From: Bifidobacterium breve
GTDB lineage: Bacteria; Actinomycetota; Acidimicrobiia; Acidimicrobiales; Acidimicrobilacustridaceae
Assembly (NCBI GenBank): GCA_945878725.1
Contig: CAMCTY010000014.1
Span: forward strand, 1 to 42,677
Direction of reading: 5' to 3'
DNA: 42,677 nt
The position numbers and the translations under genes are program-made. Position 1 is the first letter of the stretch. Every line of letters starts with the position of its first letter. Positions 38,987 through 41,400 of the stretch are shown here, piece by piece. The notes under the pieces were generated by a model. The model was given only the letters and a program-made list of their open reading frames with translations, had not been told where the DNA came from and did no database searches.

Positions 38987-39993
38987 ACACGAGCGAATTG
39001 TTGTCGACTCGTTGGTCGCCAGAACATGCGCTCGACTCAACGGATACGTGCCGTGCTTTAGCTGAACTCGGACGTAAACTTGCGAACGCGGGATTCATTA
39101 ACCGATTCGGGCGGCTACAGATCGATGACGAACACAATGCAGCCCTTGCCGAACTCGCATTAGGTCAGCGCATTGACGTCGCACTCGCGGCGCGTTATCT
39201 GGGCGGACCGCAGGCACTTGTGGCGCTGCTTGAAACTGGCCTCGCGACAATCACTGAAGAAAGTCAATTCTCGCTCTCGTTCGAAGTCCTTTCCGACGGC
39301 AAAGCGATGGCGCTTTTGCCGTTTCTGGATTCGTCAACTGAAGTTCCTGCCGACAGCGTTTACGCCGGAACCGATACTTGGCTCTTACGTGATCAAGCAT
39401 GGAAGTACGGACTCCATGGAAAACGTGCGATCGATCTCGGAACGGGGACAGGTCTTGTCGCGGCGTTTCTGACGTCACGATACGAATCAGTGATTGCGAC
39501 AGACATCAATCAGCGAGCAACGCTGACTGCGCAACTCAGTCGTGAACTGTTACCTGAATCCGCAAAATCTCGAATGCATGTCGTAACTAACGACGTCGCT
39601 ACCGGCCTTCGTCCCGGAACCTTCGACTTTGTTTGCGTTAACGCACCATGGGTGCCGGCACATCGTTCCGTTGGACGCATCTACTCGCAGGGGGGCGAAA
39701 CTGGATTTGAACTCCCACGCCGATTCATCCTTGAAGGTACGGAACTTCTTGCCCCAGGCGGAGTCTTCATTGCTCTTTGTGCTGAATTGACGTTCCTTGA
39801 TGGTTCCAATCCTTTGCGTGATCTCCTCGAGAACTTCGAACGACGCGGGTTCGCGACGTTCATTGAGCCAACACCATCGCCGCATCCGTTCCATGCGGCT
39901 GCCAACGGCACTGCGGAAACGCTCCCCGGCCTTGATTCAGCGCGCCATGTCACCGTCGTGATCCATCGCAAAACCGGAGTTGTCGTTCAATGA
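38983..39993 (+). CDS. HemK/DUF7059-like class I methyltransferase in the ubiquitin cluster
   Basis: A 336-aa SAM-dependent methyltransferase. Residues 1-125 form a helical N-terminal domain. Motif I is DLGTGTG (151-157), the acidic ribose-binding residue is Asp174 (ATDIN), and the catalytic motif reads NAPW (220-223) where HemK/PrmC enzymes have [19 protein letters not shown] matches the GG-rich loop seen in actinobacterial DUF7059-type enzymes. NPPY-type enzymes methylate Gln, Asn or adenine amide/amino nitrogens; the target here is unknown. GTG 38983 overlaps the upstream stop; an in-frame GTG at 38959 is an alternative. Its stop overlaps the first ubiquitin gene (ATGA). Sampled GC is about 50%, lower than core genes. 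Confidence 0.85.
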
Positions 39994-40685
39994 GCGGAAT
40001 GCAGATTTTTGTCAAAACCCTGTCGGGGGCAACCATCACTCTCGATGTCGAATCTTCAGACTCAATCGAAAACGTTAAGCAGAAGATCCAGGACAAAGAG
40101 GGCATCCCGCCTGATCAACAGAGACTGATTTTCGCAGGAAAGGAACTCCTAGAGGGACGTACCCTTGCCGACTACGACATTCAGAGAGAAGCGACTCTTC
40201 ATCTCGTCGTTCGCCTTCGAGCTGCAACTGGTGTTGTCACCTATCAGGACGTGGGCGAACTACCACCGGACCTCAATCCTCAAGGCATTTCGGCACAAGG
40301 AGCTCCAAACGCGCAGCTCGCACACCTCACGAATGGCGCGACTATCAGTCAAAACGACATCGCGCTTTTTCCAGGAACCTACGCGTTTTCCTTCTGGGCT
40401 CAAGACGATCTCCTTTGGGAACTCACCTTCAAAGACGCGCTTGGTGCAACGGTCTCCACAACAACCGGCTCAACCTCTGGTGCCCTAATCGGCCTCACGC
40501 AGTTCGATGAGGAAATCACGGCGCCGAGTGGCACGACTACCTGCGATCTCGTGTTCGCCGCAACGTCACAAAGCGCTCTACTCGATCTCGTGACCCTCAC
40601 CCCAGTTGATGTTCAAGTACCTACAACGCCTGACGCAGACAGCGCTTGTGTAGAGCCTGCCGTGGCTCCGAACTTCACAGGCTGA
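39990..40685 (+). CDS. Ubiquitin-like protein 1 fused to a beta-rich domain
   Basis: A 231-aa protein. Residues 4-79 are ubiquitin with 16 differences from human ubiquitin over 76 positions (about 79% identity). Leu8, Ile44, Val70, Arg42, Arg72, Lys6, Lys27, Lys29, Lys33 and Lys48 (ubiquitin numbering) are kept. Lys11 is Ala, Lys63 is Arg, and Gly75-Gly76 is Ala-Ala. It continues, without a di-glycine, into a ~150-aa domain ([13 protein letters not shown] ... [21 protein letters not shown] ... [11 protein letters not shown]) and ends PNFTG. There is no signal peptide. ATG 39990 overlaps the methyltransferase stop with GGAG 10 nt before; ATG 39999 would give the canonical MQIF start. Sampled GC 48-50%. 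Confidence 0.93.
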
Positions 40686-40693
40686 AACCAGCC

Positions 40694-40699
40694 AAGGAG
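40694..40699 (+). promoter_or_regulatory. Strong ribosome-binding site of ubiquitin-like gene 2
   Basis: AAGGAG lies 8 nt before the GTG at 40708, which fixes the start of the second protein exactly at the canonical ubiquitin methionine. It shows bacterial translation signals rather than eukaryotic ones. Confidence 0.85.
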
Positions 40700-40707
40700 T
40701 AGTAACT

Positions 40708-41400
40708 GTGCAGATCTTCATCAAGACGCTCACCGGGAAAACCATCACGCTTGAAGTCGAACCGGGGGACTCGATCGACAATGTGAAAGCGAAGATTCAG
40801 GACAAAGAGGGCATCCCCCCTGATCAGCAGCGACTGATCTTCGCCGGGAAACAACTGGAAGACGGTCGGACTCTCTCGGATTACAACATTCAGAGAGAGT
40901 CGACACTTCACCTTGTGCTGCGCCTGCGGGCCTCCACAGGCGTTGTGACTTATCAGGTAGTGGCTGAGACCCCGCCGATACTTTCCGCGGATGGTTACTC
41001 GCCTCAGACTGATCCCAATGCGCAACTTGCGTATCTCGAACTGAATGCCACCATGGTGCAAAGGGACGTTGCTCTTGTCCCGGGTATTTACGAGTTTTCA
41101 TTTTGGGCTCGCGACAATCTGATGTGGGAATTCACGTTCATGGACTCTCTGGGAGCGATCGTTGGATCACTTAGCGATACGGCGTCAGCGCCCCCTCCGG
41201 GCCTCACGCAATTCATCGTCGAACTCACGGTTCCCGTAGGCACCGCCACGTGCGACCTTGTGTTCAGCGCTTTGTCAGAGAGCGCACTGATTGATCTTGT
41301 GAGGCTGACCGGACTTGGTGTTTGTTTACCGACAACAACCACAACCGAAGCGACCGAAGCCTCGACCGATCACTCGGTGGTTCCGGGCTTCACTGGGTGA
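40708..41400 (+). CDS. Ubiquitin-like protein 2, nearly canonical, fused to a beta-rich domain
   Basis: A 230-aa protein whose first 76 residues differ from human ubiquitin at only V5I, S20G, T22S, E24D, K63R, G75A and G76S (about 91% identity). Six of seven ubiquitin lysines remain, and the Leu8/Ile44/Val70 patch is intact. The C-terminus runs [12 protein letters not shown] into the same ~150-aa domain as protein 1 ([21 protein letters not shown] ... [11 protein letters not shown]), then a Thr-rich tail ending PGFTG. GTG 40708 is backed by AAGGAG. It is 22 nt after gene 1, so the pair is a tandem duplication in one operon. Without Gly-Gly it cannot be conjugated in the usual way. Confidence 0.95.

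Follow-up and report, generated by a model that had tools for sequence, protein, structure and literature searches.

Gene organization of the ubiquitin locus

The window, by which we mean the whole stretch of DNA analyzed (42,677 nucleotides), contains an operon in which a short ORF with a Tat signal and a methyltransferase gene lie upstream of two tandem ubiquitin genes. The features are as follows.

38672..38986, + strand: short Tat-signal ORF, 104 aa, with the signal SRRRALG; the last ORF ahead of the methyltransferase
38903..38983, + strand: 27-residue end segment of the Tat ORF, followed by the stop; predicted first stretch of a jelly roll
38959..39993, + strand: HemK2/MTQ2/PrmC-like methyltransferase with an NAPW motif (PF05175, 36.4 bits, above its cut-off)
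39990..40685, + strand: Ub1 protein (ORF1), 231 aa, consisting of ubiquitin, jelly-roll part and PNFTG
39999..40226, + strand: ubiquitin domain of Ub1, 60/76 residues identical to human
40227..40616, + strand: jelly-roll part of Ub1, starting TGVVTYQ, placed by alignment
40668..40685, + strand: C-terminal PNFTG of Ub1 and stop, a tag common to both proteins
40708..41400, + strand: Ub2 protein (ORF2), 230 aa, consisting of ubiquitin, jelly-roll part and PGFTG; model pLDDT 79.4
40708..40935, + strand: ubiquitin domain of Ub2, 69/76 residues identical to human
40936..41325, + strand: jelly-roll part of Ub2, starting TGVVTYQ, with the first stretch predicted to be absent (model and fold matches)
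41383..41400, + strand: C-terminal PGFTG of Ub2 and stop, the same common tag

The identity of Ub1 and Ub2 as ubiquitins is not a chance resemblance, because their PF00240 scores of 97.6 and 106.1 bits, over positions 1–72 of the 72-position profile, lie far above the 25.4-bit cut-off. No other protein in this genome (2.26 Mb, 93% complete) matches PF00240. An earlier note on this DNA had counted 16 differences from human ubiquitin across residues 4–79 of ORF1 and 7 across residues 1–76 of ORF2; against the human sequence, both counts are exact, the seven being V5I, S20G, T22S, E24D, K63R, G75A and G76S. The terminal GG is gone in both copies, replaced by AA in Ub1 and AS in Ub2, and L8, I44, K48, H68 and V70 are retained in both. 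Past the ubiquitin, each protein continues into a common β-sandwich of ~130 residues, followed by a linker and the terminal PxFTG.

The genes are tightly packed. The methyltransferase gene shares 28 nt with the Tat ORF and 4 nt with Ub1, the ATG of ORF1 overlapping the stop of the preceding gene as ATGA, and ORF2 begins at a GTG with AAGGAG ahead of it. In loci that lack the methyltransferase, the end of the Tat ORF falls between −18 and +9 nt from the ubiquitin start. These overlaps and short gaps fit translational coupling. Ubiquitin identity, loss of GG, gene order and overlaps can all be read from the sequence itself.

The methyltransferase is HemK2/MTQ2-like, with a motif IV that reads NAPW or NSPW, and may methylate a partner; its score against TIGR00537 is 49.2 bits, under the cut-off of 87. 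PADLOC matches the methyltransferase part alone ('mad2'), and we rejected a defense system as a reading of the operon. We likewise rejected a conjugation system, as GG is lost and none of the six proteins scanned (the operon and its 5′ side) has a conjugation domain; the E2 profile PF00179 finds no match in the genome, where the control profiles are silent too. A collagen-like protein with Gly-x-y repeats and a repeated TTTVRPAT stretch (window 41632-42675) adjoins Ub2 and runs off the contig end.

Distribution and selection

Among 61 genomes sampled from relatives, 16 have PF00240 matches: 15 of the 21 genomes of the genus (this one included), 1 of 16 from other genera of the family and 0 of 24 from elsewhere in the order. 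An even sample of the class gave 11 of 395 genomes, and the isolate genome IMCC26207 (L085) also carries ubiquitin genes. The earlier note had described a bacterial operon and had named absence of the cluster from every related genome as grounds for giving up its claim; its presence in 15 genomes of the genus and in the isolate bears out the former, and the latter does not occur. In the genus, the operon usually comprises the Tat ORF, the methyltransferase and between one and three ubiquitin genes, next to an OB-fold/thiolase pair. Longer relatives that combine ubiquitin and jelly roll with fibronectin-III-like sequence also occur (L080 3734-4861, L036 1-816, L082 6001-7128 and L145 5596-6462); the Tat ORF and methyltransferase lie upstream in L080, L082 and L145, and neither lies directly upstream in L036 (genome G007). 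Three loci whose records are titled Bifidobacterium breve (L078, L090, L100) carry the Acidimicrobiia-type operon and are probably mislabelled assemblies.

In the window genome the operon follows a sulfotransferase gene and the usual place is empty; in another genome (G003) a similar sulfotransferase fragment is found about 7 kb away from the operon. Three ubiquitin-negative genomes (G010, G019, G020) have the usual place on one contig without the operon, and a tblastn search with 7 queries (E 0.01) found no operon remnants at these empty places or on contig C68 of G012. The G+C content of the operon (0.556–0.572) is lower than that of the rest of the locus (0.584–0.611) in 8 of 8 loci measured.

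Median dN/dS is 0.19 for the ubiquitin part and 0.21 for the jelly-roll part, from the 36 of 153 pairs that were usable (dS under 1.5 in both parts). By these sequence divergences the tandem paralogues are under purifying selection, as the earlier note had proposed. Its further proposal that the ubiquitin was acquired from a eukaryote is plausible. A ubiquitin tree of 112 rows, in which 4 of 106 inner branches are starred, resolves almost nothing and settles neither the donor nor the number of transfers. The note was right in what it observed and half right in its interpretation; it had passed over the fusion partner, the Tat ORF ahead of the genes, the missing GG, the tag at the C-terminus and the broader class of signal-peptide-ubiquitin proteins.

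A jelly roll proposed to begin in the upstream gene

The Tat ORF is a regular companion of the ubiquitin genes. Both arginines of its twin-arginine signal are the same in all 14 relatives aligned, and TatC is encoded in the window genome; by a simple hydrophobicity rule, 0 of 34 ubiquitin ORFs of the Acidimicrobiia group have a signal peptide of their own. Of 24 first-gene positions in 22 loci, 23 are preceded by a Tat ORF with an NLISNASFE...W-like end, G007 being the exception; the count leaves out four loci whose contigs begin within the operon (L033, L034, L035, L090), and its motif search also took L for F (L029 reads SLE). Its stop falls from a few to some 20 residues past the Trp of this segment. 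Within the genus, 13 of 15 ubiquitin-positive genomes have the Tat ORF vs 0 of 6 ubiquitin-negative genomes (Fisher p 5e-4), the six being a small control in which some genomes are incomplete and the usual place of one (G012) falls on contig ends. In G007 we found no Tat ORF although ubiquitin is present, and in G018 the contig is cut where it would be. One and the same motif closes the Tat ORF in distant loci, among them the methyltransferase-free L083, L084, L085, L095 and L100, and where there are two ubiquitin genes in IMCC26207 (L085) and in L095, each has a separate Tat ORF.

What follows the ubiquitin is predicted to be an incomplete jelly roll. Folded alone, the jelly-roll part of Ub2 gave a model with pLDDT 89.5 and pTM 0.81, and the predicted structure has the jelly-roll fold. 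It aligns to single-domain carbohydrate-binding modules only from residue 36 (8xmz), 26 (2zey), 25 (2zew) or 24 (3oeb, 2zez) onward. By predicted structure, the fold is like that of CBM families 4, 16 and 61 and of the 5w6h tailspike module, which the sequence profile of the jelly roll also matches at E 1e-5; the window chain differs in beginning past the first ~24–36 residues of these modules and in matching no Pfam family of them. The search of Pfam CBM families covered 5 Tat segments and 5 jelly-roll parts at E 10, where HMMER filters lose weak matches. The carbohydrate-binding-module matches tie with jelly rolls of insecticidal toxins, tailspikes and F-box proteins, and since these match equally well, the fold must be regarded as a common one. 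A fold search with the whole protein returned ubiquitin structures.

The end segment of the Tat ORF is 22–37 residues long across loci. Its best match among PDB sequences is a weak one (E 0.026) to a GH10 carbohydrate-binding construct, and the segment and the jelly-roll part each weakly match the chain 9fli, in the right order. From the alignment of the jelly roll to known modules only from about residue 24–36, together with the Tat segment upstream, we infer one domain over two genes; the end segment, the TGVVTY restart behind ubiquitin and the linkage of the two genes are features of the sequence, whereas the jelly-roll fold and its cut point are predicted from models. A search with the jelly-roll region alone, which returned 118 protein clusters, found no unsplit relative: 115 clusters have PF00240, and the other three (P0124, P0152, P0221) have their starts within the jelly roll or where ubiquitin ends, and seem to be truncated.

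A shared C-terminal tag

The tail PxF[TA]G occurs 24 times in this genome (L044-L067) vs 4 times for the reversed pattern, counted with a pattern that accepts TGG, not a stop codon, as well (1 of the 24, L048). Of these, 17 end called ORFs, many of them with repeats or a signal peptide. Over the genus the counts are 377 vs 62 reversed, with an excess in 20 of 21 genomes, and an excess is also found in 16 of 16 genomes from other genera of the family. This excess, with many of the tails on repeat or signal-peptide proteins, suggests that PxF[TA]G is a surface-sorting signal, apparently an undescribed one. The tag often stands behind Thr/Pro-rich linkers.

Ubiquitin-headed surface proteins in other bacteria

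The earlier note held near-eukaryotic ubiquitin to be rare in bacteria, which did not stand: a scan of genome contigs with the family alignment confirmed at least 285 relatives. We kept the best 80 loci, 23 of which were assigned to the Acidimicrobiia group by their shared jelly roll and record titles. The 80 loci hold 92 ubiquitin ORFs, 58 of them outside this group, and in 50 of the 58 (among the best 80 of at least 285) a predicted signal peptide ends right before ubiquitin Met1, as called by a simple rule, a hydrophobic core and a small residue before Met1, in place of a trained predictor. Going by record titles, which can err for assembled genomes, eight named bacterial phyla and one archaeal phylum are represented among these 50, and one is unassigned. 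Records that bear no metagenome-assembly mark include Conexibacter, Dyella, Cohnella, Ruminococcus albus, Rhodobacter, Rhodoferax, Paradonghicola and Methylolobus. The other eight ORFs are in L089, L102 (5′ end cut), L105, L114 (a tetra-ubiquitin), L118 (two ORFs), L124 and L136, and several of them may be eukaryotic contamination. Possible cases are L114, L118, L124 and L136, which keep GG and lack a signal peptide in assembled prokaryote genomes.

More than 100 residues follow the ubiquitin in 42 of the 50 signal-peptide ORFs, and GG is kept in 6 of 50. In the 10 of 50 whose passengers were scanned, we found three autotransporter barrels, two sets of S-layer homology domains, one of adhesin repeats (SdrD_B, SpaA), one β-helix and one of GLUG repeats, with no family beyond ubiquitin in the remaining two. 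Signal peptides before Met1 and passengers of the autotransporter, S-layer and adhesin kinds indicate that ubiquitin heads surface-type proteins in many bacteria. They share with the window proteins a near-canonical ubiquitin as the leading mature domain on a surface-type protein; they differ in that a Sec-type signal sits on the same chain and the anchors are autotransporters, S-layer homology domains or adhesin repeats.

One exported bacterial ubiquitin has been described. BfUbb of Bacteroides fragilis is reported to be secreted, to lack GG and to kill some strains of its own species (PMC5705921); it is a free 76-residue protein with 63% identity to human and its own signal sequence, the signal peptidase site lying exactly before ubiquitin residue 1 (PMC3352274, PMC5705921). 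That site matches the pattern of the 50 signal-peptide ORFs. BfUbb resembles the window proteins as a bacterial ubiquitin that has lost GG and is exported, if our reading of the window is right, and differs in that the window ubiquitins are fused, have no signal of their own and stand as two copies behind a Tat ORF. Among CC-licensed PMC papers we found no description of signal-peptide-ubiquitin surface proteins beyond BfUbb. We read the locus as belonging to a wider class of exported proteins headed by ubiquitin, within which it is a Tat-linked form spread over two genes.

Exchange of heads and their possible role

Ubiquitin heads and jelly-roll carriers recombine, as judged from sequence comparisons. 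The jelly rolls of P0208 and P0209 are identical and their ubiquitins 72% alike; conversely, the ubiquitin of P0205 is 97% like that of window Ub2, and its jelly roll is 60% alike. At least 15 of 8646 pairs among 132 proteins combine jelly rolls at ≥95% with ubiquitins at ≤88%. Across the Acidimicrobiia ubiquitins, the core is kept at 470 of 510 positions (0.92) and the classical binding face at 175 of 270 (0.65), with other positions at 0.80. In the signal-peptide forms the face is kept at 375 of 400 positions (0.94), a figure biased to best hits.

The likeliest role by analogy is that of a binding head aimed at other cells. This is suggested by the architectures of its kin, in which a signal peptide directly precedes ubiquitin on proteins of autotransporter, S-layer and adhesin-like kinds, and by BfUbb, which acts on other cells. 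A head without any partner, serving as a fast-folding, stable cap that aids folding of the jelly roll ahead of Tat export, would account for a kept core and a drifting face in Acidimicrobiia, but heads are exchanged between carriers, and elsewhere ubiquitin with a kept face (again biased to best hits) follows Sec-type signals. Sec-type export does not need folding beforehand. We find such a cap possible, if doubtful.

BfUbb also shows that a ubiquitin exported by a bacterium is able to affect other bacteria (PMC5705921, PMC3352274), and by analogy the displayed or released heads could harm competing strains. Patchy presence in the genus and swapped heads would fit such rivalry. Here, however, the ubiquitin is joined to a carrier whose tail is of the surface type and has no signal peptide of its own, and we recognized no immunity gene in the operon, which leaves an antibacterial role unlikely. 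Much the same standing falls to mimicry of host ubiquitin toward eukaryotes such as grazing protists. Its appeal lies in the retention of L8, I44, K48, H68 and V70 by both window copies and in the mean identity of 92% to human, over 72 positions, of the signal-peptide-ubiquitins of other phyla, a value biased upward because only the best 80 of at least 285 relatives were kept. The drift of the binding face across Acidimicrobiia and the loss of GG speak against it; to judge by sequence comparison, a drifting face, a kept core and swaps fit mimicry less well than a binding head whose partners change.

A model for assembly and export

We propose that a jelly roll is split between the Tat-ORF product and the ubiquitin protein, is completed by strand complementation and is exported through Tat to the surface, a reading to which we give a probability of roughly 0.55. 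The ubiquitin heads are fused to a jelly roll predicted to miss its first strand, and the product of the upstream Tat ORF would likely supply it. The Tat-borne strand would complete the ubiquitin protein in the cytoplasm, the folded pair would exit through the Tat pore as a hitchhiker complex, toward the cell surface, and the PxFTG tail would anchor the ubiquitin protein there. In known hitchhiker complexes such as PaoABC, a twin-arginine partner carries partners without a signal (PMC4273604). The pair in the window resembles these in that one partner bears a twin-arginine signal, the ubiquitin partner lacks one, and both genes share an operon; it differs in its carrier, a short peptide that would contribute one strand to a domain of the cargo itself. 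Against our reading stand genome G007, with ubiquitin and no Tat ORF, the weakness of the PDB matches to the Tat segment, the commonness of the fold, and the failure of the jelly-roll search to yield an unsplit relative among its 118 clusters.

The ubiquitin–jelly-roll proteins might instead stay in the cytoplasm, with the Tat ORF encoding an independent secreted peptide and the methyltransferase modifying the ubiquitin proteins or a partner. Ubiquitin ORFs without a signal peptide, the protein-methyltransferase-like gene that stands between the Tat ORF and the ubiquitin genes in many loci, and the G007 genome without a Tat ORF would all be in keeping with this. The shared end motif of the Tat ORF in distant loci, methyltransferase-free ones among them, and the PxFTG tails, which mark signal-peptide proteins, speak against it, and we hold a cytoplasmic location to be quite improbable. 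A programmed frameshift that would fuse the Tat and ubiquitin ORFs into a single chain, as overlaps of a few bases in several methyltransferase-free loci might hint, is very hard to reconcile with an overlap geometry that varies from −18 to +9 nt and with the methyltransferase gene that intervenes in the window and in most loci of the genus. Many operons lie at contig ends, but contamination or a chimeric contig, against which the earlier note had already argued, can be dismissed almost entirely given that independent assemblies share the operon, that 15 of 21 genomes of the genus and isolate IMCC26207 have ubiquitin genes, and that there is a family protein (P0190) on a 2.35-Mb contig labelled Acidimicrobiia.

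Combining the split jelly roll and Tat export with the signal-peptide proteins of other phyla, we tentatively regard surface-displayed ubiquitin as a possible widespread bacterial device, of which Acidimicrobiia would have a two-gene, split version, assembled before export, with heads swapped like cassettes to alter binding.

Textbooks present ubiquitin as a eukaryotic modifier acting inside cells; among bacteria, Bacteroides fragilis offers a well-studied exception. That it heads surface-type proteins in many bacteria opens an extracellular role to direct testing. Should the split domain prove real, the Acidimicrobiia operon would be a natural fragment-complementation system coupled to Tat export and would offer a handle on how Tat recognizes folded complexes, while the heads exchanged on a stable carrier would constitute a natural set of ubiquitin variants.
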